The position numbers were made by a program, and so were the translations under genes. Source: Paucibacter sp. DJ2R-2 (GTDB lineage Bacteria > Pseudomonadota > Gammaproteobacteria > Burkholderiales > Burkholderiaceae_C). Taken from it: DNA of 64,000 bases. Shown here piece by piece: positions 21,985-44,780 of this stretch; the first letter of the stretch is position 1, and the number at the start of each line of letters is the position of its first letter. The stretch is from contig NZ_JAJIRT010000001.1 in the NCBI RefSeq assembly GCF_025717675.1, positions 558,001-622,000 of the forward strand, in the 5' to 3' direction. The notes under the pieces were generated by a model. It did not search any database and was not told the origin of the DNA. It saw only the letters and a program-made list of their open reading frames with translations.

Positions 21985-22239
21985 AGCGACATTTTCGACC
22001 GATTTGACCCGGATCCGGCTTGGAAAAAACTACCCCCTAGGGTCCTTGGAGCCACTATGAAAGTCAGCTCCGCTGCGGTTGCAGCCATTCGTGTTTGCCG
22101 CTTGTAGGGCAGCTTCGTGCCCGAAGCGGACGTCCGCACAGGTCTACCGATTTTCCAGAAAGCTGCCACTCAACGTTTGACATGCGTGGATTGACCCGGT
22201 TTGCCGGGGAGAAAGGCGCCTCGATGGAAGAGTTAGGCT

Positions 22240-22758
22240 TTACTGCGATTGAGAGTGTGGATTTCGCCATTGCTTGACGCCCCAGGATTCAGCTAGCGAG
22301 TCTCGACAGACATGCGCAAGGGCGAGGGAGTTTTGCTGCAATTGCTGGCCGACGCTTCCGGCCTCCAGAGAACGGCCGAACTGAACCATTGCGGCTTCGA
22401 CTCTCTTGTCTTCTACCGTCCGATAGGACTTCACGTCAGCAAGGATGGTGAAAAACTGATCGCGCACCGCGTTCGAATCCAACGCCGCCTGGCCGGCGAT
22501 GCGGTCCCGCAGCCACGTGTCGAATCGCCAGTTCTTGCCTAGAGGCCAAGGCACGACGAACAGTGAGACCGTCCTCGTTTCGACCTCTTTGGGATCAACG
22601 CCCGGGAGGGCCGTCGGAACAGCAATCCTCGCCTTGGTTCGAAAATCGAAGCCGAAATCGTTCCAGTTCGGGTCCGTCGGCCAGATGGTGACGCTGTTGG
22701 GGGCCTGCGAACCCGTGGGGTACGCCTGAACGAAGGTGACGTTGTATTCAGCGGGCAT
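22240..22758 (-). CDS. uncharacterised protein, first cargo gene of the island
   Basis: This 172-residue protein matches no family I recognise. It is soluble, with no signal or membrane segment, an N-terminal beta-rich half (EYNVTFVQAYPTG, SVTIWPTDPNWND, TRTVSLFVVPW) and a helical second half (WLRDRIAGQAALDSNAVRDQFFTIL, VEAAMVQFGRSL). ATG at 22758 is used although a ribosome-binding site is not obvious. It lies downstream of the PIN-like gene on the same strand with about 150 bases between. Being nearest the left end, it may be a recent cargo gene. Confidence 0.6.
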   Translation of the reverse strand: MPAEYNVTFVQAYPTGSQAPNSVTIWPTDPNWNDFGFDFRTKARIAVPTALPGVDPKEVETRTVSLFVVPWPLGKNWRFDTWLRDRIAGQAALDSNAVRDQFFTILADVKSYRTVEDKRVEAAMVQFGRSLEAGSVGQQLQQNSLALAHVCRDSLAESWGVKQWRNPHSQSQ

Positions 22759-22915
22759 AGGTGGCAAGGATTTGAGGAGCTATCTCAAGCCAAAATTGTT
22801 GGCTTGTCGGGGCTTACTCGCAGCAGGCCGGATGCAGAACTTGGCATCAGGCTCCTGAGCTACGGCATGGCCATTGCTTTAGGTGGCTCGGCCAGAGAGC
22901 CGAACCAGCAGATGG

Positions 22916-23758
22916 CTAGGCCCGGATCGACTGCTCGCCATCGCGTGAGGCTCTGAGGTGATCTAGCACTCGCTCCATCTCCTTGGGATGCGCCCGCAGA
23001 CTGGGCAACAGAATATGGCTAATGGTCGAGGCGAAGCCCACAATCTCACGGCCGATTTCTCCCACCGCCAATGACGAGGTCACCCGGACTTCCAGCATTC
23101 GCGAGAGCGCGTTGAGATCCTTGTCTCCAGAGTAGAGCCGCACGTTTTCGCGGGTCCCATGATCCTTCCTCATGCCTCGTATGTATGCCGCCTCCATCAC
23201 CAGGCGAATGTCTGCGACGGCGTTGTAGGCGCCGGCGTCAGTCGGATTGACCGCTGGCTTCAGGACGCCTCTGGCTGGCCCGCTGCCGTACAGGCACGCG
23301 ACCGCGCAGGTGACCAGAGGATGCGAAAGATTGACGGCATGCTCGGAGGCCAGCGCGTCAATCTGCCTCAGCACGGCGCGCGCATCTTCCTTGGTACGTT
23401 GATGCACAACCAACGCCTGGAGATCCATGGTCAGCCGCAGAAGCTCGCCTGCCTTCTCACGCATATGTGGCGCAAGCGCAGTCACCATCGAAGCACCGAA
23501 TTCCTGCAGGTACACGGTGTCCGTCGTCGCCAAGCGATAGAACATCCCGACCGCTTGAGTATCGGCCATCATCTGGTCATGGAACTCAGGTCCTGATTGA
23601 GACCTTTGAACGCTTCCCTCAAGGATCGAAAGCAACGGGCTGACTGTGTTTCCCTTGCGGTCTACAGCCCGAGCGATAGCCGCCCCTGCGGTCGGCACGC
23701 CTTTGAGCGACTTCTTGATGTCTTCGACGATGTTTTTGTCAAGTAGATAAAGCGCCAC
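22916..23758 (-). CDS. PIN-like domain protein (putative RNase), uncharacterised
   Basis: This 280-residue protein starts with GTG behind a strong AGGAGA site (spacing five bases). Acidic residues sit where a PIN-type nuclease needs them: LYLLDKNIVEDI at the start, SPLLSILEGSV near residue 45, YNAVADIRLVME and LYSGDKDLNALSR near residues 185-225. The last is the typical fourth-acid loop of PIN domains. PIN proteins cut RNA in toxin-antitoxin and anti-phage modules; no antitoxin-sized partner is adjacent. The assignment is an inference from residue pattern only; overall similarity to known PIN toxins is low and the protein is longer. Confidence 0.6.
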   Translation of the reverse strand: MALYLLDKNIVEDIKKSLKGVPTAGAAIARAVDRKGNTVSPLLSILEGSVQRSQSGPEFHDQMMADTQAVGMFYRLATTDTVYLQEFGASMVTALAPHMREKAGELLRLTMDLQALVVHQRTKEDARAVLRQIDALASEHAVNLSHPLVTCAVACLYGSGPARGVLKPAVNPTDAGAYNAVADIRLVMEAAYIRGMRKDHGTRENVRLYSGDKDLNALSRMLEVRVTSSLAVGEIGREIVGFASTISHILLPSLRAHPKEMERVLDHLRASRDGEQSIRA

Positions 23759-24277
23759 GGTTTCTCCTCTGCTGTTGCCACTTCTCAGCGGCTTGTTCCA
23801 ATGCGATAGCACTCACCGAGCGGATGCACGCTAGACCGCATCGAGTGCTTGCCGCGGCCCACGGTTCAGTTCCCGCTTTTCTGGCCGACAGCTAACGACA
23901 CAGTATGTTTGTCCTCGTATTTTGTGGGCCTCAGGTTTTTCGCCCGAATGTGATTAATTTCTGTCCTTCCACCGACGGCGCGCTGGGAGATCATCGTGTC
24001 GGGTTACGGTATGCCTGTGCCAACTTCTGCTATGGGCACTTTGCAGCCGCTCACCTGTCGAATCCCAGCGGCTGCAACCAGCCTGAAGCTGTCCTTGCGC
24101 AGCCAACGGCAGCATTGCTGCGGGCGCGGTCTCTCACTTCCACGAACTCGACGCCAGAAAGCTGCCGGTCAACGCTGAAGTGGAATGTGGGCCCGCGGCC
24201 TACGCGTGGCGATAGAGGCCGGAGCGATTCAAGCGCAAGCCGCCAGTTCCAACAAAGAAGTCCAAAAGATCTTCATG
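23759..24277. other. 519-bp non-coding stretch in cargo
   Basis: No credible gene. AGAAAGCTGCC-NN-TCAACG near 24150 repeats a segment also present near 22158, and the two share further short blocks such as a GCAGCC-rich stretch. It looks like two degenerate copies of one older sequence, not a gene. Confidence 0.35.
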
Positions 24278-24451
24278 TCAGGGGAGCTTTGTCATTGCAT
24301 AGGCCACGACCCCAACACTGAGGATGATTGCTGGCAACATCAGTAAGAAGAGCCCAAGCAGCACCGGGCCAGCCCCAAAGGGCTTGAGTCGATCCAACAC
24401 CTGAGCTTTCCCCTCTTTGCTGTCCAACAGTGCCTTGATGATTGCCGCCAT
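24278..24451 (-). CDS. small membrane protein, 57 residues
   Basis: A short gene with a good ribosome-binding site (CGGGGAAC five bases before the ATG). The product has a soluble N-terminal 25 residues (MAAIIKALLDSKEGKAQVLD) and one strong membrane helix (PVLLGLFLLMLPAIILSVGV). No family is recognised. Small single-span proteins of this kind occur as toxins or effectors in defence islands, but nothing here shows that role. Confidence 0.45.
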   Translation of the reverse strand: MAAIIKALLDSKEGKAQVLDRLKPFGAGPVLLGLFLLMLPAIILSVGVVAYAMTKLP

Positions 24452-25332
24452 GTTGTTCCCCGTGCAGCTGCGAACCATAACGGAGCAGCCATGAACAACA
24501 TTGTGGGACGAAGGCCAACAAACACTACTGCGGCACAATTGCGCCAGGCCCTCATCCGTCGCATTTCCATGTATCGCAAGGCTTCCAAGTCGTTGATTTG
24601 TTTGGATGCTTCCGTCGAAGGCCCCGCAATCCGTCCGCAGCAGTCGGGTTGTCCAGCGTGTCGCCTGGCCCATCTAAGTTCTTGATTTGATTTGAGTTAT
24701 TTCAGCCATTCTGCGGCCGAATTTCGCTCAAAAGAGCACTCCAGCTCTTAAACCGGGCCGAGCAGATAGAGGATCTGCTTCTTTTCTTCCAGCCCCTGCA
24801 CGGCGTGGCAGAAGTAGCCCACCACCTACTCGATGGCCTCTTGAATCGCCCCGAGTGCCGCTGAGGCCAGTTGGTTTAAGGCAGACAGTCGCTGCCTGAC
24901 CAGCGCGTTGATGATGGCAACTGGCTTTGAGTTTCATTTACGGGGCATGTCCCTGCGGCCCCTTCAGCAGATGATGGTTGAACCAAGCTATTCATTCCAA
25001 CATCGCCAGCTCCACGAATTGCCTGGTCTCCCTTTGCCCTCACCGGCGAATCGCCTCGGCCTAACAGCGCCCTTTGACCGTTTCGGGCAGGGCTTTGTCA
25101 TAGCTGCCGCCCCTGGAGCAAACCGGGCGCTCGATGCCAACTTCTCCCAAACGCTCACTGCTGCGAATCGCAGGCATTGCATCACTCTGTCGGCGTGGCG
25201 CGCCGGGTCGTCGTTTTCAGTCGGCTTATGGCCCCATCTGTGCGCAGATTCACGAACAACACAAAAAGGTGAAGCCAGGAAATACAAGTCACCTTAGGGG
25301 AGCAAGCTCGGGGCACTTCCGTCCATGCATAT
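24452..25332. other. 881-bp degenerate region in cargo
   Basis: No intact gene. It contains a broken fragment of the PrkA kinase gene (listed separately) and GC-rich sequence with overlapping open frames on both strands but no start signal or domain. Its composition differs from the AT-richer segment that follows at 25333. Probably the scar of former cargo. Confidence 0.4.
24748..24852 (-). pseudogene. relic of the PrkA-type serine protein kinase gene
   Basis: Reading leftward, the frame gives GAIQEAIE, a stop, then VVGYFCHAVQGLEEKKQI and LYLLGPV before a second stop. The conserved segment just before the Walker A loop of PrkA (YeaG) reads almost the same, ending YLLGPVGGGKSS. Here the glycine loop is replaced by a stop and the rest of the 640-residue protein is missing. 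It is clearly non-functional. The match is from memory of the family sequence. Confidence 0.65.
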
Positions 25333-25965
25333 TCACATCTCCATGAATAGAAGAATGACCGGAACAGTAGCAAAAACCAGAAATGAAAAAAACCTCAAGG
25401 GAAAGGCAACCCGTTCAACTCGATGCAGAAAGCCATCGTTCGCCTCACGAGAGGCCATGAGGTGCCCGAGGTACCAAAGAGAAAAATTCAGCGCGAGCAC
25501 TTGAATAGCCAAGAAGACGCCACCCGCACCCATGAGCCACGTTTTCCACAAGGCAAGATTCTTCGTGGAAGCTGTAAACGTTGAAAAGAGTTGCCCAAAA
25601 AGCAACCCGAAAGACAAACCGCCAATGGCATAAGTATTTATAAGAACATGATATGCACTGCGCGCGACAAATCTAGATCTAGGAAACAGCAAGGCAAAGC
25701 CTACCAGCACAAGCCCAAGAGTCCCTACAACGTTCCAGAGATGAGGTCCGATCCCCTCTGAAATTGCGGATTCAAGGTAAGTCGCCGGTAGGTAGTTCCG
25801 GAATCGAGCCACAAGCCACACGATCAGGAATGACGGCGCGGCCCACCAAAAAACAATCAGCGCGCCTTCCTTTGCGACCCGAGGAGACCACAGGGCCGCA
25901 CTATCAAATGGCTGGACTTGCGTACGGAGGTATTGCCTCAGTCTGCTCATAGCTTGAATGTCCAT
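25333..25965 (-). CDS. multi-spanning membrane protein, uncharacterised
   Basis: This 210-residue protein has about five hydrophobic segments (GALIVFWWAAPSFLIVWLVA, WNVVGTLGLVLVGFALLF, NTYAIGGLSFGLLFGQLF, WLMGAGGVFLAIQVLALNF, FFSFLVFATVPVILLFM). No transporter or enzyme motif is recognised. The segment is more AT-rich than the chromosome, indicating a different origin from its neighbours. ATG at 25965 is used; MSRLRQ five codons later is an alternative. It belongs to the left cargo block. Confidence 0.6.
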   Translation of the reverse strand: MDIQAMSRLRQYLRTQVQPFDSAALWSPRVAKEGALIVFWWAAPSFLIVWLVARFRNYLPATYLESAISEGIGPHLWNVVGTLGLVLVGFALLFPRSRFVARSAYHVLINTYAIGGLSFGLLFGQLFSTFTASTKNLALWKTWLMGAGGVFLAIQVLALNFSLWYLGHLMASREANDGFLHRVERVAFPLRFFSFLVFATVPVILLFMEM

Positions 25966-26092
25966 TCAACTAAGCCCATCAAACGCCCCACCGCATCGAA
26001 TGTATGCGGAATGGCAAACGCAATGCTGGCATTAACAACCAGAATTTCGGGGCCTTGCGACCGAGAACGACAATTGGCCAGTCGGCTGCGAT

Positions 26093-26242
26093 CTACTTCT
26101 TTCCGAAGATATACCCAACTAAAGTGCCAAACAAGACTCCCAGAGAAATATCAAATTTCCCAAGACAGCTCAGCGCCAACGACGCAGTGACCACAATTAA
26201 AATGATCAACGCCTGCAGCCATTTGAATCGCCCCGGGGCGAT
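26093..26242 (-). pseudogene. possible small membrane-protein fragment lacking a start codon
   Basis: The 49-codon frame between stops reads WLQALIILIVVTASLALSCL then KFDISLGVLFGTLVGYIFG and ends KK: two hydrophobic helices, the second a glycine-rich hairpin. There is no ATG; TTG at 26209 or GTG at 26194 are the only starts and neither has a ribosome-binding site. It is either a truncated gene or an unusual start. The AT-rich composition matches the membrane protein at 25333. Confidence 0.3.
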
Positions 26243-26246
26243 TCAA
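26223..26246. repeat. 24-bp perfect palindrome
   Basis: TTGAATCGCCCC followed by its exact complement GGGGCGATTCAA, six bases beyond the stop of the small gene at 26252. No T-run follows. A half-copy, CTTGAATCGCCCC, recurs at 24840-24852. Confidence 0.7.
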
Positions 26247-26251
26247 GCTGA

Positions 26252-26497
26252 TCAATGTGACTCAGTCCGCGAAGTCGAGAGCCGGACGCTCGTGCGTGCC
26301 AGCTGACGTCGCAGAGCATCCTCGTACTCCGCAGCTACGCCGAGAAGTTGCTCAATCGTTCTGATCGTCGTTTGGATTACAGAAAGATCACCAAGATCAT
26401 GAATGCATCGTGCCGTCGAGAGGCGTTCGAGTAGGCACTCAATGACAGGCTGCGCTGCCTCCACGGTTTTAACTATTTGCACGTGTGATTGCTTCAT
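26252..26497 (-). CDS. small soluble protein, 81 residues
   Basis: A short gene with a clear GGAGAG ribosome-binding site five bases before the ATG. The product is helical (VQIVKTVEAAQPVIECLLERL, LSVIQTTIRTIEQLLGVAAEY) with no signal peptide or membrane span and no recognised family. Its 3' end is followed by a 24-bp perfect palindrome. The gene lies 377 bases downstream of the giant RT gene on the same strand, so it could be part of that system or an independent regulator. Confidence 0.5.
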   Translation of the reverse strand: MKQSHVQIVKTVEAAQPVIECLLERLSTARCIHDLGDLSVIQTTIRTIEQLLGVAAEYEDALRRQLARTSVRLSTSRTESH

Positions 26498-26874
26498 GAT
26501 GCTCTCCAGTGAACAGATGGGCGATTGATTCTGGGCCTATTCGGTGGCGACTGAATGTGGCGTCTCGAAAGAAGCGGGGGGGCGTGTAAGGGGGGCATGC
26601 CCTGACCTGAAGGCCTTATCCCCAGGCCCCAGGAGTCAGGCGCTCGAACTGACTGAGCAATCAAAGTTGCTGGCGCCGACGACAAATTGATCCGAGGCGT
26701 CGACTTTCGATTGCCCCTACCAACCGACGTCGTTTGCCGAGGAGCAGCGTCAAGCGACGTCGCTCGCGGGGTCAGTCGGCGCTCGGCAGAACTTCGGCAA
26801 ATGGGTTTATCCGCGAGTGGCGCACACAGTTCTGGAGCGCCTAGACTACCCGCGCGCCAAGCACGGACACAATT
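26498..26874. other. 377-bp spacer 3' of the primase-RT gene, with tRNA-like arm and hairpins
   Basis: No credible gene. On the minus strand, 26658-26642 reads GCTCAGTCAGTTCGAGC, like a tRNA D-arm, followed by GCCTGACTCCTGG, a usual neighbour of such arms. A TCAGG/CCTGA stem enclosing GGCC/GGCC follows (26640-26606). There is no T-arm or acceptor, so it is not a tRNA gene. It may be a tRNA relic or part of an RNA used by the RT system. Confidence 0.35.
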
Positions 26875-29800
26875 CTAGGTTTCGTCACGGTCGAACATTG
26901 AAGAAGTGCTTCCGCCAAAGTCTGCACCCCATGGGGGAACAAAAACGGTGGGGAGCTTGCCTTCGATTGGACTGAGGTCGACAGGAAGCCAATCAATCAA
27001 AGTTGGCGGTGGCCCATAGAACGGCATCTCTCGCCAGTTTCGGCTCCAGCATTCAAGCCGGTTGGTCCACCCCGATGGTTCTGAGAAGAAGCCTGCCATG
27101 GCCTTCGCCTCATCGAACAGCTCTTTTCCGTTGGTGAGAACAGACCTTGAATCGACAAGACGTGCTGGGCCTACCTTGGTCAGGAATGCACTGACCTGCT
27201 GAAAGGCCTTCGCGACGGTTTCAGCCTCCTGAATCTTCATCGCTTTCGTTGGACTGCCCAGAGCAGCCGACGCAGGAACAAAGCCGCCGTTCTCTGGTGT
27301 ATATGCTTGTACTAGACGCGCCTCGTCCAGCATTTCAACGACGGGAAGATGAGCAACTAGTTGGACAGGCGTCGGCAAGGCTTGCGGTCGTGGCTTGCCT
27401 TCGTTCATATAGATGGGGTCGATGTCGACAATCACGACCGCCTGCTCCTTGCGCGTCAGGACGTCCTCCGAACGGTTGTAGTAGATGCCACGCGACCACC
27501 CTGAGTATGGTGTTGCCGCCAGTAGGTGCCCAGGCGCTTCGCGGGCAGTGGACCAACTGCTCTTCGCGATGACACAACTCCCTCCACCTTTCAAGCCAGT
27601 CTTAGCATCAGTCAGGACTGCAGCGCAGAACACCGTGGTTAGGCCGGCAGCCAGCAAGGCAGATTGACCATAAATCCAGTAGTCCGCAGAGCGAGTTGTG
27701 CAGGCGGGCACAACCAAGATGGTTCTACGGTCTGGCCGCCCATCAAGCTGAAGCGCCGCCGTCAAATTTTCTATGTCCTTGAACACAGGGTCGTACTTCA
27801 CGTCTCCGGGGTCGTATCCGAACCGCTGGCGAAGGGCTCGATACTCGCTACGAATCGTCCCGTGGTTCACCGGATGCGTAGAAGCAAACAGCTCAGAGCA
27901 AATCAGCTCTGCCATCCTCTCCACTGGACGAATTTGTTGCGCAAGAGCGGTCACTCCCCTGACATCCAATTGCTGCGCCTTCACGGCCGCACGCGCCTCC
28001 TCAGTGGCTGATACAAGGCCCTCCAAGCTTGCGAGTGGTGCCCAGTCTTCTCCGGACGGATTGATGAACTCACCCATCGCCATGGAATGAAACTTCTTCC
28101 GTCGACTGAAGACGCCGACAGCTCCAGGTACGTCGTTCTGAATTGGCTGGAGCAGCGTTATGTACGCTGACTTCTCCATCGAGTTGCCGCCTGTCGCGAA
28201 CACCTTCTGCTTGTCCAGCGTCCCAAAGATGTTCTCAAAGCTCTTTGTGAAATGCAGGTCTCTCGGTGACCCATGAAGGCGATATGTGCCAGCGACGACA
28301 GACAGCTTGGCGTTCGGCAGGTTTGTTAGGCGCTCGCGCAGCCACTCGACGGTGTCAGGCCGAACGCTGTATTCAGGAAGAACCAGGACGTCTACGCTGA
28401 ATTCGTGGCATGCCCGAATGGCTTCGTCAATTAGGCGCCGCCTTCTATGCTCATTCCAGCTAGGCACCAATTCAGCGCGGTCCCATTGGTTCTCCAACGC
28501 CTCTTTGGACAAGCTCGCCCTTGCGCGCTGTGCGCTTGATGTTGTTGGTGGCGTCGGCGTAACTCCTGCTCGCTCGCCTGCCATTTCCGCCAGAGCAGCT
28601 CCGCAGGTCGAATCGATGTCTACCTCGTTGCAGAACGCACGGTCGATGTTGTCTGGAAATCCCGCATCGACGATTGGGTGGTAGTAAGAATCGTCGATTC
28701 GGAACTGGAAAACAGCGAACCGTACGTGGCCAGCACTCTTCGCGGTTCGTCGAGTTCGCCATTCCCGTTCCTGCACCTCACGCAAGCGCTTGAAGAACTT
28801 CTCATGGAACATGCCCGGGGCGGAAGGAAGGCCACTTTCTAGGGTGGCATCCTTGCTGCCATCTGTGCCTGTAGGTTGCAAAGGCTTGTCGGGCGCAATT
28901 TCATCCTTGGTCGAGGCAACACTGCTCGCGTCTTGGGCCTCCCTAGTGGTGCCCTTCGCGATGCCCTCCTTTGGGGGAATTGGGGCGCGAACCGGATTCT
29001 CTGTCTCAGAAGCCGTTTTCGACGGAAGCCCATCGCCATCAAATAGAGACCGCTTACCTTGCGTCCCAGCCGTTCTCGCGAACGTCTCACCTAGAACAGA
29101 AACGCCAATCAACTTACCGTCACGATTGTTCGTTTGCGTCCACACGCGCTGGCTGGTTTCGACTTCGTCAATCTCTACGTGTCTATCGCGCCCGACTTGC
29201 TCAATGAGGCCGCGAGCGTGGGGCCACTGGCGCCCGCTTTCGTCGGTGAACGATTTGGACTGTGGTTGCAGGCCCCAGATGTGCGACTTGCAGGTTCGGA
29301 CTCGATAGCCAAGAGCAGACTGAATCCCTACGAAGAGGGCTAAGCCGGTTTTGAATGAGTCCTCATCGAGGACTGCGTCGATGTGGGAATTCGCTCCGAA
29401 GGGCCACTTCTCATGCGCAAGCTCGTCATCAGGACATGCGCTCCCGAGTTGTCTGGCCAGTGATGTCATCGCCGGCCTCAGCTTTTCAGCGTGTTCCTCC
29501 GGCAGCACAGCCTTACTAGAGTCCGTGCCGTACAGGTTCAACTGCGTCGTTAGCAAAGCAAGCCAGCCGAGTGGCGTAACCTTCGCGACGATACCGAGCC
29601 GCCCCTTTGGCGCCAGCGCGTCACGGAAGAGCGCTCCGATGTTAATGCCCGCACTGTCAATCGCCAGCACGGCATCCTCGAGCTCCCACTCAGGCGGAAC
29701 ATTCACGTCAGTGGAAGTCGTCGCATCGCCTGCTAGATTCATTTCGAAAACAAGCGCGCGCGCCCACGCTGACACAGCGGCCACACGAACCGAGCGCCGT

Positions 29801-32800
29801 AGTGCGGTCCAAGCAGACTGCGCCTGGTCTGGAATTCCCCGCACCAGACCTGACTCCAATTTGCCAAGCCGGCGGTCAATGAGTCGCCACGCGGTCACGA
29901 CCCTCCGTTCCGGGCCATTGGGGCCTTCGACAACCTCGCATTCTGGCAAGGCGCCGAGTTGCTTCGCGGTGAGGCGTGAGAAAACTGCTGGAGCGATTTC
30001 GGCCAGCATAGATGTCAGCACGCCTGGCCGGGCAACGTCGCTATGTCCGTCAGCCTGCAGTCGCATGGCAGCCGTCTCAGTCTCAACCGCCAATAGAAAC
30101 TGGACCTCATCCACTGCATCACGGCTCGTTGGAAAGCTCCGTAGCAGTTGAACAGCGCGATAAGTAGCCCCCGTGAGATGCCCACATGTCGGATGCGGAA
30201 GCCCTGGTGTTGATGGATGTCCTTCACCACGCAAGCGCCCAAGGAGCCGCGAAAGGACATACTGCGCGGTATTGATGTCGACGGCTTTGCCATCCTGCTC
30301 AAGAGCTTGGAAACGCTCCAGGTCGTCGACCATGCCAAGGGCATCTGTTACGGCATAGCCGATGCGCCAGAGCCGGGCGTCAGCGAGTGGGACTTCGTGA
30401 GCGCGCAGCCGGCCCTTGCCGTCTCTTGCAAATGCGAAGTTCGCGAGATACGACCGAGGAACGACCGGACCAAAGAGACTGAATGCCGCCTCTCCAGAGT
30501 CGAAATCTTCTACCCAATGCGATGCACTGATGAATGGCCACGCTGGCACAAACTCCATCGGTTCCTTGGCCCCGATGTCCTCCATGTCATGTTCCAACTC
30601 ATGATTCACGCGCGCCAGTGCATCAAAGCAGTCGGCCGCCCATTGGAGTTCTAGGCATCCAAAATCAGCCACCTTGCTCGGTTGCGTCTTTCGAATCTTG
30701 TTGGCGCTACCGGCCCAAGCAGTTTTCCGAGCAGCCAAACGCGCAATGTCGATAGGAAGGTCTACATCACTCCAAACTGGCTGAACCGACACCGTGCCGT
30801 CCGGGGTCGCCATGCGATAGGCAACTGACGCCGGCAGAGAGCCTCCGGGGAATATCTGCGTCAAGGTCCTGAGCTGCGTGCCCTCATGGTTTGCGTTCTT
30901 GAGCACAAGATGGCCCACACGGATACCAGGCAGGGCTGGCACTGGCTCGCCAATTTCTCCGAGTAGGTGCTTCCGACGGGGCAAGCAGTGGATAAGTCCA
31001 TCAACATGACAAACGGCCAGTAGCGCAGCAAGCGCATCGAGCCGCAATCCAAGCATAACTAGTTCGTGCTCGGCAAGGTCAGGCTTCCAAAGATTAAGAA
31101 GGCCGAAGAACTCCGAGGCGCCAGCACCTGGCCGCAACAAGACAGGTTCAGTCAGCTTGCCCCGAATGCTGCTGAGTGGGTCATCGGCCGCGCCCCAATC
31201 GCGTCCCAGCAGAACAATTGCTTCGTGGAGCCAGAGAAATAGCGGACGCAATGGAGACGTATAGTCCAAACGGTTTCCAACGTTGGCCTTGATTTCCAAG
31301 TCCGAACTTGTGCCGTCTGCATCGGTCAGCCACGCTCGCGCCAGTGACGAATTGAGTTCGTCCGAAGCAAGGCCAAGTAGTGGGCCTAGCTCGTCCGACA
31401 GCGTGCCACTGGTCGGGCAAATTCGCAGCTGCCTGGCAATCCACCGAACACATACGCTTCGTTGAACAAACATTCGTCGAAGCTTGAGGACACCCTTCCC
31501 TGCTCCACGTGGGGGTGTAGCCTTAGGGGCGGCTAACTCTGTAAAGAATCCGTCGAGCACAACTAGGTTGGAAAGCGCAGCGATGGCTGCTTTCCGCTGG
31601 GACTCAGCCAAGAACGACAGATTTCGGTCGTAGGAATTTGCACTTCGCAGGAGTTGCTCAAGACCATCCAAAGCATAGAGGCTGGGGTCAAGCCAAGGGC
31701 ACACTTCCACCTTCATTCGCGGTGCCAGGCGTTCTGTAACTTCGCTCCATATGGACCAGTACGCGCGCCACGCATCCTCAGAGGTTTGATGTCCCTCCTT
31801 CGCGACGGCATACCAAGTCCACCGTGCAGCTTTAGATAGCTCGGCAGGTCGCAAGTCGTGCGCGTTAAGCGCAGTGAACACTTGACGCTGAATGGATTCG
31901 GTATCTGCCTCGTACAGGCGACGGTCGCTGAGAAGCACGAGTGCGCTTGCTCTTTGGATTGGGTCTTGCCAGGTCTCGAATCCAGCCTCGCCGTCGCCCA
32001 GTTCCAGCAGACCAATTTCGCGAGCAGGCCCAGAACCTATAAGCGCCTTACCCTCCGTAAGAAGTTCACTGAACTCCTCTGGGGTCATACGCGGAGCCAA
32101 GTCTCCCTTGGGAATCGCTTCCAAGCGCAGCCGGGTGCACGCATCTTCAACGGCTGCGCGCAGTTCTTCCAAAACTTGCGGGGAATCCGCAACTAGAAAT
32201 ATGTCGTCGACGTAGCGAGCATAGCCAGCGTGAGGCAGTGCATTTTCGGAATTGAATCTCTTCAGTAGCTTCCGCAATTCCGCGTCCAAAGGGAAGAGTG
32301 CCACCGTCGCAAGCCAAGCGGACAGCACCGGCCCTTGCGGAATCCCCATCGACGACTCGCACTTGGCGATTCGCCCGGTCTCGGGGTGGTAGTACTGGTA
32401 CCCAAAACTCTGCTCGCAGAACCAGTCAACCAACGAGTCCGAAAGATTCTGACGACCATTGCTGAAAGAGGGTGCGAACTCTTCGCGTCGCTCGGCCAAG
32501 TCAAGTCGCTCAAATGCCGCCTTGAATGGCTCCCTAAGCGCGTCTCTAACCGTCGACCTATACAGGCGGTCGTAGTACCGCTTGAGGTCTAGCCGCAATG
32601 CATAAACTTCGTCGAAGCCGTTCGCAGTAGCGCGCAAACTTCCGATGAATTCTCGCCAGCACTCGATGTATGGACGGAACATGCCTTGATTGGCGGCTTT
32701 AGACCGCCCTTCAAGCACATCCATATCGATTTGGTAGGCGAAGCTCAGCGTCTGTTCATCCGTCCCCGGCGTCCCACTCTCTGCCGTGGTGACCGTCGCC

Positions 32801-34692
32801 CTTCGTCCGCGATAGAAGCGGACGGCGGGAATGCTGCGGCTGAAGCAGGCCTCTTCCGACAGGACATCGAATCTCTCTGTCAAGGTTTCAGACAGCATGT
32901 ACTGCTGAAGCACCAAGTCCTCTGGACAAGGCATCGTCTTGAGCCGTGGTTCTTGCTTGTCAAAATCGCGAGCCACAAACACAGCGTCAAACGGCTCCAG
33001 CGGTTCAAAGGTGGCCTCTTGCAGGCGCTCCCGCAACCCGACATTGAACGCGGTCGCCCCAGACTCAAGCCTCCGCCAAGCGGCCTCGTCAGTCGGAACT
33101 TCACCTCGGTCCGCACCAGACTTAGCCAACACACGCGCGTTGTTAAGCCGTGATGCCTCGTCGGCAATGAACTCTGCGCTGTAACCCTCGTCTTGTAGAG
33201 CCCGGCCGGCACTAGTGCTCGAACTACTGCGCAATGCTTCAATGTCAGAAAACCAAGCGCGCTTATACCCCGCGTTCGAACGCAAACCGAGATTCAGAAG
33301 AAAACTGGCCTCTGCAGCATTTCGTGTGAGGCCCATCGCGGCCCTGTACCTCACACCGAGCGACATGGCCCTCCACACGTCATCGTCAAGCACCGCGTCC
33401 AGGCTATAAAGGCTCTCCAGCTTGGATGCGACTACTGGCAACGCGGTCGGATGAATCGAGTCTTGGATGAACGCTTCGGTCCACCCTCCATCCAGCGCCG
33501 AGATGAGCGAGTCCGGGTCTTTCTCGTCATCAGTCGAAACACCAAGCTCTGTTAGCTTGGTCTTGCTCGGCCAAACAAAATCTGCATCAAATCCAGCCTC
33601 GGCGAGAGCTAGCGCAAGTTTTGCACTGCCGCGCACGCCTGCCTTGTCTCGGTCCAGGAAGATATGAACAAGCAGGTCTCCGGCCGGTGCGGCGGAGTCG
33701 GCAATGCGGCGCAACTGCTCAATTTGCTCCTTGGAAGCTTGTGCGCCAAGGATGGAGACCGCCGGATGACCTAGCGACTCTAGTCGCAGCGCGTCGACCA
33801 GGCCTTCGCAAACGAAAATCTCTTTGTGCTCGCCCGCCTTTGACCGACCTTTCAGCAGCTCGAGAGCGGCGTTCCCCCGGTACAAGACCTTGCTCTTCGC
33901 AAACCCTGGGCTGTAGAGGTATTTGGGCGAATCTTTCTGTACCTCCTTGACGGCGCGACCAGCGAAGCCGACCACATCTCCTTCCAGCGTGTGGATTGGA
34001 AAAACAACCCGGGCATCGAAAAAGAAGTCTCGAAAGCGGGGCTCCGCTCCGGCGAAGAGTTGGTTTGAGTCCGTCGTGCGCTTAACGCGACGGAGCAGTC
34101 CAATTTGCTCCAGCATCGCTTCTTCGATACGCCCCTGCCCGGGGTCGATAGAGGCGCGCACCACCTCCCCTGTTAAGGTGTTGGAGCGCGCATACGACAG
34201 GCTAGCCTTCTTTGCGATGTCCTCAGGCAGGTTCCGCGAAGCCAACCAACCGCTGAGTTCAAAATCGGCACTTGCCCTGTGATAGACATTGGCTGCGTAC
34301 TTGAATGCTGCTTGCGACGTCCCGTCCCATACTGGTCGGTCGCCAACCTTTCGCTGGTTGCTGCCAGGACCGGTACGAGTCTTCCGCTGCGGAATACTGA
34401 AAGTGCTTCTGAGCCATTCAGCAGCCTCTGCGAACGATGCGTGCCGCACATGCCGCACCATGTCGAAAATGTCGCCGTCCGCGCCGCATACGAAGCAATG
34501 GTGGTGGGGGGGACGGGTGTCCCAGTTCTCATACAGAACCATTGACGGGTCGTGGTCGTCGTGGAATGGGCATAGGCAGCGCAAATTTGCCCCGCGACGG
34601 ACAACCGCTATGCCCAACGCCTCTGCAACCCGCGACGGTGCTACCGCGCGCAACAATTCATCGACCGAGCTGCGGTCCACCTCTCGTGCCAT
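26875..34692 (-). CDS. giant DnaG-like zinc finger/Toprim - reverse transcriptase - nitrilase-like fusion protein
   Basis: The 2605-residue protein has, in order: a DnaG-type CHC2 zinc finger (C41 and H44 in CPFHDDHDPSM, C66 and C69 in HCFVCGADGDIF); a primase-like region with RFRDFFFDARVVFPIHTLEG; a Toprim domain (E296 in VCEGLVDAL, D347 and D349 in FLDRDKAG); and a reverse transcriptase (D702 in LRLDLKRYYD, GIPQGPVLS at 783-791, YVDD at 827-830). About 1,200 unassigned residues follow. The C-terminal CN-hydrolase-like part (about 2040-2440) has E2107 in LVLPEYS, lysines 2161/2163 in LDKQKVF and C2331 in VVPACTTR. RT plus nitrilase recalls DRT1-type UG reverse transcriptases in phage defence. 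The start at 34692 follows GGAGAG. Function inferred; no partner gene is obvious. Confidence 0.85.
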   Translation of the reverse strand: MAREVDRSSVDELLRAVAPSRVAEALGIAVVRRGANLRCLCPFHDDHDPSMVLYENWDTRPPHHHCFVCGADGDIFDMVRHVRHASFAEAAEWLRSTFSIPQRKTRTGPGSNQRKVGDRPVWDGTSQAAFKYAANVYHRASADFELSGWLASRNLPEDIAKKASLSYARSNTLTGEVVRASIDPGQGRIEEAMLEQIGLLRRVKRTTDSNQLFAGAEPRFRDFFFDARVVFPIHTLEGDVVGFAGRAVKEVQKDSPKYLYSPGFAKSKVLYRGNAALELLKGRSKAGEHKEIFVCEGLVDALRLESLGHPAVSILGAQASKEQIEQLRRIADSAAPAGDLLVHIFLDRDKAGVRGSAKLALALAEAGFDADFVWPSKTKLTELGVSTDDEKDPDSLISALDGGWTEAFIQDSIHPTALPVVASKLESLYSLDAVLDDDVWRAMSLGVRYRAAMGLTRNAAEASFLLNLGLRSNAGYKRAWFSDIEALRSSSSTSAGRALQDEGYSAEFIADEASRLNNARVLAKSGADRGEVPTDEAAWRRLESGATAFNVGLRERLQEATFEPLEPFDAVFVARDFDKQEPRLKTMPCPEDLVLQQYMLSETLTERFDVLSEEACFSRSIPAVRFYRGRRATVTTAESGTPGTDEQTLSFAYQIDMDVLEGRSKAANQGMFRPYIECWREFIGSLRATANGFDEVYALRLDLKRYYDRLYRSTVRDALREPFKAAFERLDLAERREEFAPSFSNGRQNLSDSLVDWFCEQSFGYQYYHPETGRIAKCESSMGIPQGPVLSAWLATVALFPLDAELRKLLKRFNSENALPHAGYARYVDDIFLVADSPQVLEELRAAVEDACTRLRLEAIPKGDLAPRMTPEEFSELLTEGKALIGSGPAREIGLLELGDGEAGFETWQDPIQRASALVLLSDRRLYEADTESIQRQVFTALNAHDLRPAELSKAARWTWYAVAKEGHQTSEDAWRAYWSIWSEVTERLAPRMKVEVCPWLDPSLYALDGLEQLLRSANSYDRNLSFLAESQRKAAIAALSNLVVLDGFFTELAAPKATPPRGAGKGVLKLRRMFVQRSVCVRWIARQLRICPTSGTLSDELGPLLGLASDELNSSLARAWLTDADGTSSDLEIKANVGNRLDYTSPLRPLFLWLHEAIVLLGRDWGAADDPLSSIRGKLTEPVLLRPGAGASEFFGLLNLWKPDLAEHELVMLGLRLDALAALLAVCHVDGLIHCLPRRKHLLGEIGEPVPALPGIRVGHLVLKNANHEGTQLRTLTQIFPGGSLPASVAYRMATPDGTVSVQPVWSDVDLPIDIARLAARKTAWAGSANKIRKTQPSKVADFGCLELQWAADCFDALARVNHELEHDMEDIGAKEPMEFVPAWPFISASHWVEDFDSGEAAFSLFGPVVPRSYLANFAFARDGKGRLRAHEVPLADARLWRIGYAVTDALGMVDDLERFQALEQDGKAVDINTAQYVLSRLLGRLRGEGHPSTPGLPHPTCGHLTGATYRAVQLLRSFPTSRDAVDEVQFLLAVETETAAMRLQADGHSDVARPGVLTSMLAEIAPAVFSRLTAKQLGALPECEVVEGPNGPERRVVTAWRLIDRRLGKLESGLVRGIPDQAQSAWTALRRSVRVAAVSAWARALVFEMNLAGDATTSTDVNVPPEWELEDAVLAIDSAGINIGALFRDALAPKGRLGIVAKVTPLGWLALLTTQLNLYGTDSSKAVLPEEHAEKLRPAMTSLARQLGSACPDDELAHEKWPFGANSHIDAVLDEDSFKTGLALFVGIQSALGYRVRTCKSHIWGLQPQSKSFTDESGRQWPHARGLIEQVGRDRHVEIDEVETSQRVWTQTNNRDGKLIGVSVLGETFARTAGTQGKRSLFDGDGLPSKTASETENPVRAPIPPKEGIAKGTTREAQDASSVASTKDEIAPDKPLQPTGTDGSKDATLESGLPSAPGMFHEKFFKRLREVQEREWRTRRTAKSAGHVRFAVFQFRIDDSYYHPIVDAGFPDNIDRAFCNEVDIDSTCGAALAEMAGERAGVTPTPPTTSSAQRARASLSKEALENQWDRAELVPSWNEHRRRRLIDEAIRACHEFSVDVLVLPEYSVRPDTVEWLRERLTNLPNAKLSVVAGTYRLHGSPRDLHFTKSFENIFGTLDKQKVFATGGNSMEKSAYITLLQPIQNDVPGAVGVFSRRKKFHSMAMGEFINPSGEDWAPLASLEGLVSATEEARAAVKAQQLDVRGVTALAQQIRPVERMAELICSELFASTHPVNHGTIRSEYRALRQRFGYDPGDVKYDPVFKDIENLTAALQLDGRPDRRTILVVPACTTRSADYWIYGQSALLAAGLTTVFCAAVLTDAKTGLKGGGSCVIAKSSWSTAREAPGHLLAATPYSGWSRGIYYNRSEDVLTRKEQAVVIVDIDPIYMNEGKPRPQALPTPVQLVAHLPVVEMLDEARLVQAYTPENGGFVPASAALGSPTKAMKIQEAETVAKAFQQVSAFLTKVGPARLVDSRSVLTNGKELFDEAKAMAGFFSEPSGWTNRLECWSRNWREMPFYGPPPTLIDWLPVDLSPIEGKLPTVFVPPWGADFGGSTSSMFDRDET

Positions 34693-35236
34693 CAGGAACT
34701 CTCCACTGTGTTCTTGTCGTCGGCCGAGCACCACTCAGGGCGGCGGACGCCGGAACCAACGGTCGGGCGCACGCAGGTAAGTGCTATTGAACGGCTTTTA
34801 TGTAAGCAAGAGTACCAGCGTTGCAGGACGGTCGACAATTACAGCCGGCACCCGGTGGGCCCGACCGAACTAGATGCGCTGCAAGAGCAATTGCTTCAAC
34901 TACAGCTTTCTGAATTGACCATTTGCCTTGCTCGCCCACCCTCTGGCGCGGAAACCCCGCACACGACTAATGGTCTATCCCGCCTTCGGGTGCTGCGGCA
35001 ACGCATGACCGATGTGCCTCTCACATAGCTTCCAGTAACGGCTAAAGAGCGCTTCGGCGACTTCAACTTGTGCTGAAAACTCAGCGATGGTCATATAGAC
35101 CGATTTGTCCGGTTGGTCAGGCGTCATGTCGAAATCCAATGGCACGAAGGCCAGTATGGGCTCGTCAAGGTTGCACCGCCCATCGTCGGTCTGGCCGCAC
35201 TTTGCCGTTACTGCCCAACGGCCATGCGCGAAGTCA
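34693..35236. other. 544-bp region upstream of the primase-RT gene
   Basis: It must hold the promoter of the 7.8-kb gene. Apart from the doubtful short frame at 34708 no coding sequence is seen. Reverse-transcriptase defence systems often keep a structured non-coding RNA here or at the 3' side; I see no decisive structure. Confidence 0.35.
34708..35028 (+). CDS. doubtful short ORF divergent from the primase-RT gene
   Basis: The 106-codon frame contains a plausible amphipathic helix (TELDALQEQLLQLQLSELTI) and a basic end (LSRLRVLRQRM), but the first 45 residues look random and no ribosome-binding site is evident. A real protein might start further inside. Low confidence. Confidence 0.2.
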   Translation: MFLSSAEHHSGRRTPEPTVGRTQVSAIERLLCKQEYQRCRTVDNYSRHPVGPTELDALQEQLLQLQLSELTICLARPPSGAETPHTTNGLSRLRVLRQRMTDVPLT

Positions 35237-35791
35237 TTACGAGAGGCCGATCAGCCCAGCAACCTCATGTTCACGCGCGTCGATCTCGAAGCGCGAGTTT
35301 CGATAGCCGCACTTCGCAACATCCATCAAATACTGCGGCAGAAAATCCGCAATCGAGCCAGCCTGCTCGTACTGGTGGACATGCCGAAGCTCGTGGGCGA
35401 TCAAGCGTCCGTCCACACTTCCCTTGCGGATGAAGATCCCGTAGCCCAAGGCCAGGCCAACGCTGTCTTCTCCAACGAAGTCGCCCAACCGGACGGCCTG
35501 AAGTAGAACCGGATCATCTGGCAAGGGGATGGCGTCAACCTCAAGGATGCGGACACGCTCGATCCGAACGACTCCAACCTTTAGGGCAACACTAGCGCCG
35601 GCCTCGTTCAGCGGTGAGCCGAACCGTGCGATTTCCAGCGCCATCTGCTCAGCCCATGCAACGGCAGCCGGCATGATGGCCGGCAGAACTTTGGTAAGTG
35701 GTTCATTGATCACAAAGCTGCTCCAATATTCATCCGCACCGATTCCATCGAAGCAGAAAACCTGAATCGCCAAAGCATCGCAAAGACACAT
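35237..35791 (-). CDS. putative zinc metallopeptidase-like protein (HELRH motif)
   Basis: The 184-residue product contains GRLIAHELRHVHQYEQAGS near residue 135, an HExxH zinc site with a following acidic FEIDAREHE about 40 residues later that may supply the third ligand. This resembles the DUF4157/eCIS-core type peptidase-like domain. The N-terminal half is unassigned. The start at 35791 is uncertain: ribosome-binding signals are weak and an in-frame extension exists upstream. It lies between the giant RT gene and the Mrr-like nuclease, all on the minus strand. A proteolytic effector role is possible but unproven. Confidence 0.55.
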   Translation of the reverse strand: MCLCDALAIQVFCFDGIGADEYWSSFVINEPLTKVLPAIMPAAVAWAEQMALEIARFGSPLNEAGASVALKVGVVRIERVRILEVDAIPLPDDPVLLQAVRLGDFVGEDSVGLALGYGIFIRKGSVDGRLIAHELRHVHQYEQAGSIADFLPQYLMDVAKCGYRNSRFEIDAREHEVAGLIGLS

Positions 35792-35866
35792 TGACGCTCG
35801 GAAAGAAACAAGGTTGCCCGACCAACGCGTCGGGGCCCGATTCAGCTCCGCACCGCACACCGAGAC

Positions 35867-36796
35867 TCATACGGCACGCATCGGTAACGTCGTCTTGCAC
35901 TTCGGATATGAAGTGCATCCCCAAAAGGGTGAGCCTCCGTTGCGCGGCACCCGATCAACCATCTTGACGCCGCAGTTCACGCAGGTGGGGCACCAATACT
36001 CCCCCTCCAACGCAACATCAAGCAGCTCGGATTGCTGCTCTGGCGTGCGCGAAGCTATGAGCTGGAGCAGCTTTTCTGCGCTGAGCAGATTCACTCCGTT
36101 CTCAGCAGCAAAGGCCGCAGCATCTGCGGTGAACGCGGAGGTGGTCGCGAACTGGCCGCGCTTCACGTTGTGAGCCGCCATCACGCCCCGCAGTTCTCGA
36201 ATCTTATCGACACCCACCTTCCTGCCTTGCCAGTGCTTGCACTGCACCAAGCTAACGGGAATGCCCGGCTGATGGCGCGAGTACAACCAGATGTCGACAC
36301 CACCATCAGCGCCGTGCGACTGTGATTGCGTTTCAAAGCCTGCCTGCTTGAACAGGGCCTCGACCAGCGCCTCAAAGCGGCGCCACTCGATCACATCAAG
36401 AACCGTCTTGCTCCACGCATCAGGGCGAACCGGCACCGCAAAGGAGGCGGCGACGAGATCAGCCTGCGCCGTCACAGGCACAGATGCCCGAGCCGCACTA
36501 AATGCGGAACTCGAATCGCTGGAACGCATGCCCTGCTGCAGGCCGACTCCTTTCGCGCTCTCGCCCTTTTCGGGCCTTCCTGGCTGAGATGCCTTTTTGG
36601 CTATCACCAGGAGAGCGCCACCTCCAATCAGCAAGACCAGGCCCAAGGGTCTGAGCATGCCAAATGCAGCCTCGAGCGGCGACTTGCTCAAGAAGAATGG
36701 CAGCAATGCGAGCAACACCCCCACCCCGAGGATCTTGAGCGCTACATCTTCCAGCTTGCGCGCTGCCCGGGTCTTTTCGTTTGATCTTCTTGCCAC
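35867..36796 (-). CDS. membrane-anchored Mrr-like restriction endonuclease with C-terminal zinc ribbon
   Basis: The 309-residue protein has two N-terminal membrane helices (residues about 20-38, ALKILGVGVLLALLPFFL, and about 50-68, LGLVLLIGGGALLVIA). A PD-(D/E)xK domain follows, with FEALVEALFKQAGFETQ, HGADGGVDIWLY and SLVQCKHWQ (D and QxK catalytic residues). A four-cysteine topoisomerase-type zinc finger ends it (CPTCVNCGVKM, FWGCTSYPKC). The GTG at 36796 follows GGGAGG. Mrr-like nucleases cut foreign or modified DNA; the membrane anchor suggests action on entering DNA. It is divergent from the XRE/tniQ unit across a concentric palindrome. Confidence 0.85.
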   Translation of the reverse strand: MARRSNEKTRAARKLEDVALKILGVGVLLALLPFFLSKSPLEAAFGMLRPLGLVLLIGGGALLVIAKKASQPGRPEKGESAKGVGLQQGMRSSDSSSAFSAARASVPVTAQADLVAASFAVPVRPDAWSKTVLDVIEWRRFEALVEALFKQAGFETQSQSHGADGGVDIWLYSRHQPGIPVSLVQCKHWQGRKVGVDKIRELRGVMAAHNVKRGQFATTSAFTADAAAFAAENGVNLLSAEKLLQLIASRTPEQQSELLDVALEGEYWCPTCVNCGVKMVDRVPRNGGSPFWGCTSYPKCKTTLPMRAV

Positions 36797-36821
36797 CAAT
36801 CGCCTCCCTTTTGCGCGAAAT

Positions 36822-36857
36822 CATAGTCCGTCGAACTTCGAAGTTTTGAACACTATG
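36822..36857. promoter_or_regulatory. 36-bp concentric dyad with an embedded transposon-end motif
   Basis: CATAGT at 36822-36827 and ACTATG at 36852-36857 flank the 12-bp palindrome AACTTCGAAGTT (36834-36845), all sharing one centre at 36839.5. The left part also reads AGTCCGTCGA (36825-36834), the core of the transposon-end sites. It lies between divergent genes (nuclease, XRE regulator) and is likely an operator for the XRE protein, perhaps also bound by TnsB. Confidence 0.6.
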
Positions 36858-36972
36858 GGGAGGTCGCAATCGGCCTCACGCACAGACGCCTCATCGGCAC
36901 GCGACGCGACCACTCAGCCCTCCTGGCAAAACCTCGCTTCCCAAGTTGAATGCATTTATGCATACTTGGCCG

Positions 36973-37326
36973 ATGCCAGAACACCAGCAAAACACCATGA
37001 TTGCGAGCGCCTCGGAGCGCGCGCGAAGAGTTGGACTACATCAATCCTCAATTGCAAAAGCTCTTGGCGCCAGCCAATCACAAGTCAGCCGAGTGTTTTC
37101 CGGAAAAACTTCAGCGCAATCAAAGCTGGCAAAAGACATATGCATATATGTACTTGGCTCAACTTCAAAGTCGCAAGCAGATGCAGTTCGCGCAAATGAA
37201 GAGCTGATCGGAGCGCTGGCAGAAGTCTGGAACGGGACTCCGGCCCATGCTCGCGCACTTGCCGTCGTCATCCGCTCTCTCGCCCTGCTCTCTCCACCAC
37301 TTTCAACGGACGAGGCCACATCGTGA
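36973..37326 (+). CDS. XRE/Cro-type regulator preceding tniQ
   Basis: This protein of about 117 residues has a helix-turn-helix, ASERARRVGLHQSSIAKALG then ASQSQVSRVFSGKTSAQSKL, typical of Cro/XRE repressors. The start is uncertain because ATG codons at 36958, 36973 and 36997 all lack a clear ribosome-binding site. Its stop overlaps the GTG start of the tniQ gene, so both are made together. It probably represses its own promoter through the dyad at 36822 and thereby sets tniQ levels and transposition target choice. Confidence 0.7.
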   Translation: MPEHQQNTMIASASERARRVGLHQSSIAKALGASQSQVSRVFSGKTSAQSKLAKDICIYVLGSTSKSQADAVRANEELIGALAEVWNGTPAHARALAVVIRSLALLSPPLSTDEATS

Positions 37327-38507
37327 ATGCACCCTTCTTACCCGCGCCGTTTGAAGATGAGCTCCTGGATGGATACCTCGGCCGGTGCTGTGCGGCGCAT
37401 TGCTGTACCAACGCCAAATCCCTGATTGCTGGGTTGGGCGCTCACCTACAGTTGCCCGGCCCGTGCTCAACGCAGGCAGCGATCGCCGCTGGACTGACCA
37501 TCACACCTCAACAGGTGCTATTTCGGCTCACGACGTTGCCTGCACAACGCGCCTTCGCCCCCAGCCACAAAAGGGACGGACGGCCGCGAACGGAAGCGCT
37601 CTACCTAATGGGAGTTCAGATGCGCTCCAAGGTCGAAGCCATGACTTGTGCAGCGTGCCTCAACGAAGACAGGAAGCATGGCCGAACCAGCTACTGGCGA
37701 CGGATTCACCATCTCCCGGACGTGGACTGGTGTCCGATCCACCGCGAAGCCCTGCTCAAGTTTGATCCGAAGGCATTCCGTCATCGTCCAACTGACGCGC
37801 TCGCACAAGGCCCGGGGGTGCGCCTCGCCTTACCGACCGCGTTTGATGCTGCGAGTATCTTGGGTCGGTACGCCGGGCTCTTGGCCCACTGGCTGCAACG
37901 TGACTTTGTCGGAAGCAGCGCCGCACTCACCCATGTGATTCGCGATGGATGCACATCACACGAGCTTCGGTGGACGGAAACCGGCAGACGCCCTCTCGTG
38001 AGTGACCTTATTGCGAGGCAGGTGCCGACGGAGTGGCTTGCGCTTCACTGGCCAGATCTTCTGACCAAGACTCCGGGTGAGTACTTCGCAAGATTGGATG
38101 GTCCAAGCAAGGACAAACACGTCAGCTATCCCGGCGCAGCATGCGCGCTCGTGTTGGCCACTTTGTTCGATTCCGTCTCTGAGATTCAGGCACGGTTGGA
38201 AGAGGCCGAGTCGCGATTTGTTTCAAGCCCGGACACTGTGCGCGACGGCGCACTGAATGCGGCGTACCTGGACTTCATAAACGGCGCCAAGATCGACACT
38301 GCATGCAGAACCCAGCAAGTCTCGGCAGAACAGTTGGAGCAACGCATCCGCGACGAAGCCAAGCGCTGGAGCCGTGCTACCGATGGCGCGCCCAGAGCGA
38401 CTCCACATCGTCGAAGGAGTCCGCTCCCAGCAAGCGCCTCAGTACACAGACCGTCAGTGGCCAAGAGCTCGGGGCTTGAGCCACTTTCCTTAGCCCTGGC
38501 GCAATGA
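37323..38507 (+). CDS. tniQ: TniQ family targeting protein (second TniQ of the element)
   Basis: The 394-residue protein has the TniQ N-terminal domain (PAPFEDELLDGYLGRCCAAH) and its zinc-binding part (MTCAACLNEDRKHGRTSYW then RIHHLPDVDWCPIHREALL, with CxxC and CxxH ligands). TniQ proteins recognise the target and recruit TnsC. The element also encodes a longer TnsD on the other strand, so this is probably an alternative target selector replacing the role TnsE has in Tn7. It starts with GTG inside the stop of the XRE gene and its last 131 bases overlap the 3' end of tnsD convergently. Confidence 0.85.
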   Translation: MNAPFLPAPFEDELLDGYLGRCCAAHCCTNAKSLIAGLGAHLQLPGPCSTQAAIAAGLTITPQQVLFRLTTLPAQRAFAPSHKRDGRPRTEALYLMGVQMRSKVEAMTCAACLNEDRKHGRTSYWRRIHHLPDVDWCPIHREALLKFDPKAFRHRPTDALAQGPGVRLALPTAFDAASILGRYAGLLAHWLQRDFVGSSAALTHVIRDGCTSHELRWTETGRRPLVSDLIARQVPTEWLALHWPDLLTKTPGEYFARLDGPSKDKHVSYPGAACALVLATLFDSVSEIQARLEEAESRFVSSPDTVRDGALNAAYLDFINGAKIDTACRTQQVSAEQLEQRIRDEAKRWSRATDGAPRATPHRRRSPLPASASVHRPSVAKSSGLEPLSLALAQ

Positions 38508-44768: not shown

Positions 44769-44780
44769 GCGTTTGTGGGC

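Follow-up and report, generated by a model that had tools for sequence, protein, structure and literature searches.

A UG29 reverse transcriptase with a DnaG-type head and a DRT1-like nitrilase-fold domain, carried beside glmS by a Tn7-like transposon

On its sequence, the 2605-aa protein encoded at 26875..34692 (minus strand) of the window, the 64,000-nucleotide stretch of Paucibacter DNA analysed here, is a member of the catalogued DRT group UG29. It joins a replicative-type primase, a reverse transcriptase (RT) and a DRT1-like effector in one chain. We propose that UG29 works in a DRT1-like manner. Serine 887 of the protein itself would be the point from which the RT starts DNA, and the protein-bound DNA would control the nitrilase effector, with abortive infection as the outcome. 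The DnaG core would act on the RT product, most likely by supplying the single strand with RNA primers for second-strand synthesis. Drawing on sequence, predicted models and analogy, we put the chances of this proposal at about even. No UG29 mechanism was found in the open-licence papers searched. What is new here is the Ser/Tyr conservation at S887, the split modules, the alphaproteobacterial DEDDh neighbour and the Tn7-like carriage beside glmS.

The gene starts with ATG at 34692, ends at 26875 and runs on the minus strand for 2605 uninterrupted codons. This open-frame analysis confirms the single intact fusion frame given in a preliminary description of the DNA. A GTG at 34734 is an alternative upstream start and would give 2619 aa. 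Our numbering follows the 2605-aa reading, in which residue n corresponds to bases 34692-3n+1 to 34692-3(n-1). The PADLOC model RT_UG29 (PDLC03767) matched at 2183 bits, aligning model positions 2-2278 of 2280 with residues 20-2603 of the 2619-aa reading. Hence, we assign the protein to UG29. The earlier suggestion of an undescribed system falls with this end-to-end match. Other PADLOC RT models scored far lower (Drt1a 50.2, UG19 40, UG35 38.4 and UG5-nitrilase 35.2 bits), and the group II RT (30.1 bits) and CRISPR RT (29.5 bits) models were close behind these. No paper on bacterial RTs that mentions UG29 was found among the open-licence papers searched, which is not proof of absence. The group name reportedly traces to Mestre et al. 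in 2022.

A scan of a genome collection (84,980 species) gave 48 UG29 loci. Most were in Pseudomonadota, with others in Planctomycetota, Myxococcota, Pedosphaera (Verrucomicrobia, by name) and Bacillota. A single frame of at least 2380 aa was present in 39 of the 48; the other nine were truncated at a contig end, divided into pieces or shortened. Within the genus, only the window's own genome carried UG29 (one of 18). Plasmid records with a match at E ≤ 1e-40 numbered two of 72,556, one of which spans most of the protein. The 27 pattern matches in viral contigs included no relative. Among 50,697 phage records, the sole match at E ≤ 1e-20 was GenBank DQ115810, a 2438-bp record that carries the label cyanophage AS-1. 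This unannotated fragment is 36.8% like residues 782-1015. Separately, a Lachnospiraceae locus (L045:4357-7152) has a 931-aa frame matching residues 17-675 and 2301-2573 only; either an internal deletion or a fault in the assembly would account for this. Surveys for UG10_large and for group II intron RTs found none (0 of 150 and 0 of 16 genomes, respectively), and one for Drt2 found a single partial locus (one of 150 genomes). The survey with the RTasDnaG-like model (0 of 299 genomes) is uninformative, as its threshold of 1e-60 is stricter than the window protein's own score of 2.6e-51.

The nearest genome relative (L001) encodes a protein 73% identical to that of the window. Between these two genes there was no similarity in the 400 bp upstream or the 300 bp downstream. 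This speaks against a non-coding RNA, so far unseen, that templates the DNA as in the class 2 DRTs (DRT2 and DRT9). Nor was there any Rfam match at gathering threshold anywhere in the window, which also has no tRNA. Conversely, RNA families are incomplete, class 2 DRTs do use such an RNA, and four of 15 UG29 locus pairs, all of them close relatives, have some common upstream sequence. On balance, an RNA template of this kind seems very improbable.

The N-terminal part of the protein is a DnaG-type primase core (residues 6-401; 33490..34677, minus strand). Its subdomains are a CHC2 zinc finger (residues 8-100), DNAG_N (148-274) and Toprim (293-373), and the CHC2, DNAG_N and Toprim_2 matches all lie above the Pfam cut-offs. 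TIGR01391 matched residues 6-401 with E 1.3e-46; the score, 159.3 bits, is below the equivalog cut-off of 283.6. The best PDB match of the head was Aquifex DnaG (2au3; E 9.2e-46 with a 48-sequence family profile). Conservation was read from an alignment of 112 proteins (2380-2800 aa, with that of the window among them), drawn from the best 120 of 298 homologues. The DnaG acids E296, D347, D349 and D392 were present in all 112, D300 was likewise invariant, and position 394 was Asp in 97 and Asn in 14. The DnaG-type head recognised in the preliminary description is thus borne out by Pfam, TIGR01391, 2au3 and conservation. Five Pfam families were found at E ≤ 1, and the helicase-binding domain is not one of them.

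Could the head be something other than a primase? It might instead be a sensor, a decoy or a Toprim nuclease. By binding phage DNA, SSB or helicase, or by cutting nucleic acid, it would trigger the RT and nitrilase. The score under the equivalog cut-off and the lack of a helicase-binding match are consistent with such a role. The Toprim of retron Eco2 is termed an effector in the literature, and DRT1 activity is reported to require a phage helicase (PMC13275509). However, the zinc finger and DNAG_N are kept along with the acids, and a plain Toprim nuclease would need neither. We regard a sensor, decoy or nuclease as quite unlikely.

The RT occupies residues ~511-918 (31939..33162, minus strand) and contains D702, GIPQGP and YVDD; it was placed by PADLOC, VIA alignments and conservation. 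The YVDD catalytic motif (residues 827-830; 32203..32214) was found in 112 of 112 aligned homologues (from the best 120 of 298). Behind the RT, VIA alignments place an alpha-helical repeat region (residues ~919-1200; 31093..31938, minus strand). Predicted models show a mostly helical stretch with some beta thereafter (residues 1201-1970; 28783..31092, minus strand). The RT model covers residues 405-1430 and was built from 40 sequences (pLDDT 79.7, pTM 0.88). Nine of its top ten Foldseek rows were UG/Abi RTs (UG15, DRT4, DRT6, AbiA, Abi-P2 and DRT9) and one was a group II RT. With VIA, the aligned lengths were 450 residues for DRT6, 445 for AbiK (7z0z), 421 for DRT4 and 414 for Abi-P2, with an rmsd of 4.5-5.1; families missing from the VIA-align listing are not thereby excluded. 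The alignments of DRT6, DRT4, Abi-P2, AbiK and AbiA extend through model residues 756-796 (protein residues 1160-1200). Most other RTs end near model residues 480-610, with ~190-340 residues aligned. These include DRT2 and DRT9, also of the UG/Abi kind, which aligned over 252-284 residues only. By VIA Z scores alone, the RT families were tied. Thus, on profiles and structure matches, the RT body fits a UG/Abi RT with class 1-like helical repeats. The UG/Abi affinity and the motifs claimed for it earlier are upheld by PADLOC, the structure comparison and the YVDD conservation.

Ser887 (codon at 32032..32034, minus strand) is the predicted protein-priming residue, on the strength of conservation, the model and a forced alignment with DRT1. 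It belongs to a Ser-Gly-Pro motif 57 residues past YVDD, and the loop around it (model residues 481-505) is predicted as disordered, with pLDDT < 50. Position 887 was Ser in 108 and Tyr in four of the 112 aligned homologues (from the best 120 of 298). Across the family it was Ser in 152, Tyr in 12 and Glu in one of 165 sequences; these are the rows used from 166 given, and since the sets overlap and the sequences are related they are not 165 independent cases. Tyr occurs in several groups, namely Pseudomonas (L002, L003 and L007), Burkholderia-type rows, Aquabacter/Aureimonas and L022, the last being the row with Glu, where Tyr is found one column on. As a control, we took every variable column of the 112-row alignment (from the best 120 of 298) in which Ser makes up at least 80%, 11 in all. 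Of these, only position 887 changes to Tyr alone.

The precedent is DRT1. According to PMC13275509, DRT1 begins DNA on Ser402, which lies in a loop absent from the solved structure (residues 382-478 are unresolved), and S402A abolishes immunity. Its authors note that the other class 3 DRTs do not conserve this serine. Serine priming is attributed to DRT10 as well (PMC12632851). Ser402 of 9YFD aligns with S431 of the DRT1 relative L051, where it is part of a Ser-Gly-Pro 76 residues past YVDD. The S431 column was Ser in 118 of 118 rows, with Gly next in 116, the rows being L051 and 117 of 120 listed homologues picked by length. A default profile alignment of the UG29 and DRT1 RTs (E 8e-14) stopped short of the loop. 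The two Ser-Gly-Pro motifs met only under forced global profile alignment, which leaves positional homology unproven. At what we judge to be the corresponding position, UG5-nitrilase proteins had Pro in 84, Ser in 23 and Thr in nine of 120. Other invariant hydroxyls near the RT are those of S650 and Y653 (in the 112-row alignment, from the best 120 of 298, and in the genome set), and either could be an alternative priming residue. Taken together, the conservation of S887 and the analogy with DRT1 are good but not decisive support for protein priming.

Finding a Ser or Tyr in the loop that follows the RT active site favours DRT1-style protein priming, and this bears on how the primase is used. 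The preliminary description suggested that the protein may make and extend its own primer. In that reading the DnaG core makes an RNA primer, the RT of the same chain extends it and the product switches on the nitrilase. In favour of it, the four invariant DnaG acids and the zinc finger are intact. In addition, the match to the query begins within the first 22 query residues at all 48 genome loci; hence, the DnaG part accompanies the RT, fused to it or, in one locus (L034), as the next gene. Against this, the Ser/Tyr residue in a DRT1-like priming loop suggests that the RT needs no RNA primer, and DRT1 itself works without a primase (PMC13275509). An RNA primer from the DnaG core is therefore possible but unlikely, and the loop position favours protein priming. 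The analogy has a cost, since a system that needs no primase leaves the DnaG part unexplained. Conversely, protein priming as in DRT1 would free the DnaG part for another job. Our preferred reading, in which the DnaG core acts on the RT product, is helped by reports, cited in a review, of duplex-like DNA made by DRT7.

The C-terminal effector has a nitrilase fold (residues ~1973-2435; 27388..28776, minus strand). E2107, K2161 and C2331 had been named as its catalytic set. Structure comparison supports the fold, and invariance supports E2107 as the predicted general base (28372..28374). K2161 and C2331 are ruled out, as both are variable across the 112-row alignment (from the best 120 of 298). 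Their places are taken by K2199, the predicted nitrilase lysine (28096..28098), and C2265, the predicted nucleophile (27898..27900), all on the minus strand. E2107, K2199, E2208 and C2265 were each present in 112 of 112 aligned homologues (from the best 120 of 298) and in 40 of 40 sequences of the genome set, window included. Thus, the fold and the invariant Glu, Lys and Cys of a DRT1-type C-terminal nitrilase are all found. In the C-terminal model (pTM 0.56), K2199 follows strand 777-784 and C2265 sits at a strand-to-helix turn. C2265 faces the ICYD of DRT1 and the LICSEL of UG5 in extended, low-confidence alignments. The nitrilase profile matched DRT1 locally, over 34 columns, and UG5 weakly (Prob 8%); against PDB sequences, the nitrilase part alone gave a chance-level match only (E 0.19). 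By analogy with DRT1, the domain is predicted to be a phage-triggered effector.

In some genomes the modules are encoded separately. An Aureimonas locus (L034:813-8549) has three adjoining frames, for the DnaG part (417 aa), the RT with repeats (1289 aa) and the nitrilase (824 aa), which match successive parts of the UG29 model (17-390, 466-1498 and 1630-2269). In Pseudoalteromonas (L016:9986-17385) two frames with a 4-base overlap match model positions 3-1072 and 1095-2264. Such natural splitting into neighbouring genes suggests that the modules act as separable parts of one complex. A further locus (L037) has UG29 in four pieces, which may be an artefact of draft sequence. The PADLOC RTasDnaG-like model, which gave 173 bits on the DnaG head of the window protein, matches two frames of the Aureimonas locus (L034:6075-8549), the DnaG one and the nitrilase one. 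This model seems to mix two modules.

In eight loci, all alphaproteobacterial by name, an exonuclease gene adjoins UG29 on the same strand. It lies downstream in seven (L027, L029, L031, L032, L038, L039 and L047) and upstream in L043. All five of the neighbours tested matched PF00929, and the DEDDh motifs FLD-E, AH-AFD and HRA-DC are kept in eight of eight. On a quick tree a single branch holds all eight loci, with 1 change, and 0 of 500 shuffles gave so low a number. There is a suggestive parallel here with the exonuclease activity cited for DRT7 (RT-PrimPol) in a preprint title. A fuller version of our proposal would make UG29 a one-protein factory for double-stranded immune DNA. Synthesis would start on Ser887 (Tyr in some lineages), the second strand would be primed by DnaG, the alphaproteobacterial DEDDh enzyme would trim the product, and the protein-bound duplex would hold or release the nitrilase killer. 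We offer this version tentatively and think it rather unlikely. If true, UG29 would stand beside the PrimPol-based DRT7 as its counterpart built on DnaG, independently reached and coupled to a DRT1 effector.

The window's UG29 copy is cargo of a Tn7-like transposon beside glmS. The element (21848..56454; 34,607 bp) has termini identical at 21 of the first 24 bases, and is flanked by target duplications AAGGGT at 21842..21847 and 56455..56460. The right duplication is 11 bp from the stop codon of glmS (56472-58415, minus strand; named by eye from sequence). A four-gene transposition block lies at 38377..44754 (minus strand). Its only firm match is the TnsD/TniQ gene (38377-40131; TnsD and TniQ by Pfam). 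The AAA ATPase at TnsC's place (40128-41576) matched AAA_22/AAA_16 weakly, below cut-off. The genes at the places of TnsB (41573-43630) and TnsA (43627-44754) gave no Pfam match at E 0.01, so the Tn7 branch of this element looks divergent by sequence; TnsA, TnsB and TnsC are named by place. A second TniQ gene (37323-38507, plus strand) stands tail to tail with the TnsD-like gene. A TnsB-site-like repeat has three copies at the left end and two at the right, the pattern with up to two mismatches having 14 matches in the whole window against 7.0 expected. With the two flanks joined, the resulting 180 bases matched 14 of 18 genomes of the genus, the window's own among them, for the most part on the glmS side. 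In one relative, G322 (a 76%-complete draft; L059), the match crosses the junction at 76% identity and the site is empty. There, a terminator-like hairpin comes straight after glmS; in the window this hairpin lies beyond the left end (by eye).

The same element carries genes for a type I RM system (HsdR, HNH, HsdM and HsdS; 47792..54095, plus strand) and for Mrr, NYN and PDC-S11 proteins. Four further cargo frames (175, 298, 131 and 210 aa; 22240-25965, minus strand) had no Pfam match at E 0.01, and the 298- and 210-aa ones also none in PADLOC. UG29 thus sits in a mobile element together with other defence genes. Defensive RTs are known cargo of Tn7-like elements (PMC8649781). As cargo, UG29 might serve the transposon or another host process rather than phage defence. 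However, the type I RM and Mrr neighbours, the spread of UG29 over several phyla and its filing under DRT by PADLOC all argue against such service. Furthermore, the 11 neighbour families common to at least three loci, among the 48 plus the window, include no transposition gene of this element, within flanks that reach at most 10 kb, so that more distant genes would be missed. A role outside defence is hardly probable. On the same neighbour survey we rejected a general link between UG29 and Tn7-like elements. One of the 11 families, shared by five loci, is a P4-type integrase (named by eye).

If S887 primes, a second family would start DNA in the DRT1 way, and Ser and Tyr would stand in for each other as primers in a single family. 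What a DnaG primase does in immunity would then become a direct question. Among known proteins, DnaG primase shares with the window protein the CHC2, DNAG_N and Toprim parts with their metal-binding acids. Unlike DnaG primase, the window protein is fused to an RT and a nitrilase, and no helicase-binding domain was found. UG5-nitrilase proteins also pair an RT with a nitrilase and have the same nucleophile motif, LICSEL; they differ in having no conserved serine at the position judged to correspond and, in the 1012-aa L056, no DnaG part. DRT7/UG10 (RT-PrimPol) likewise fuses an RT to a primase; preprint titles and a review cite it as having an exonuclease activity and as making duplex-like DNA that is protein-primed. 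DRT7 has a PrimPol-type primase, whereas that of UG29 is of the DnaG (Toprim) type and UG29 adds a nitrilase; the RT_UG10_large match, 33 bits over 80 residues, falls short of full length. DRT1/UG1 has about half the length (1229 aa in the 9YFD chain) and lacks a DnaG head. Its repeat region had no profile similarity to that of UG29 (residues 930-1990; E 0.19), and the Drt1a match is partial, aligning residues 689-867 with model positions 171-331 of 1176. DRT1 shares with the window protein the RT, the helical repeats, the C-terminal nitrilase and a Ser-Gly-Pro in a disordered loop after YVDD. From UG29 itself, which it matches over its full length and in the same domain order, the window protein shows no essential difference.
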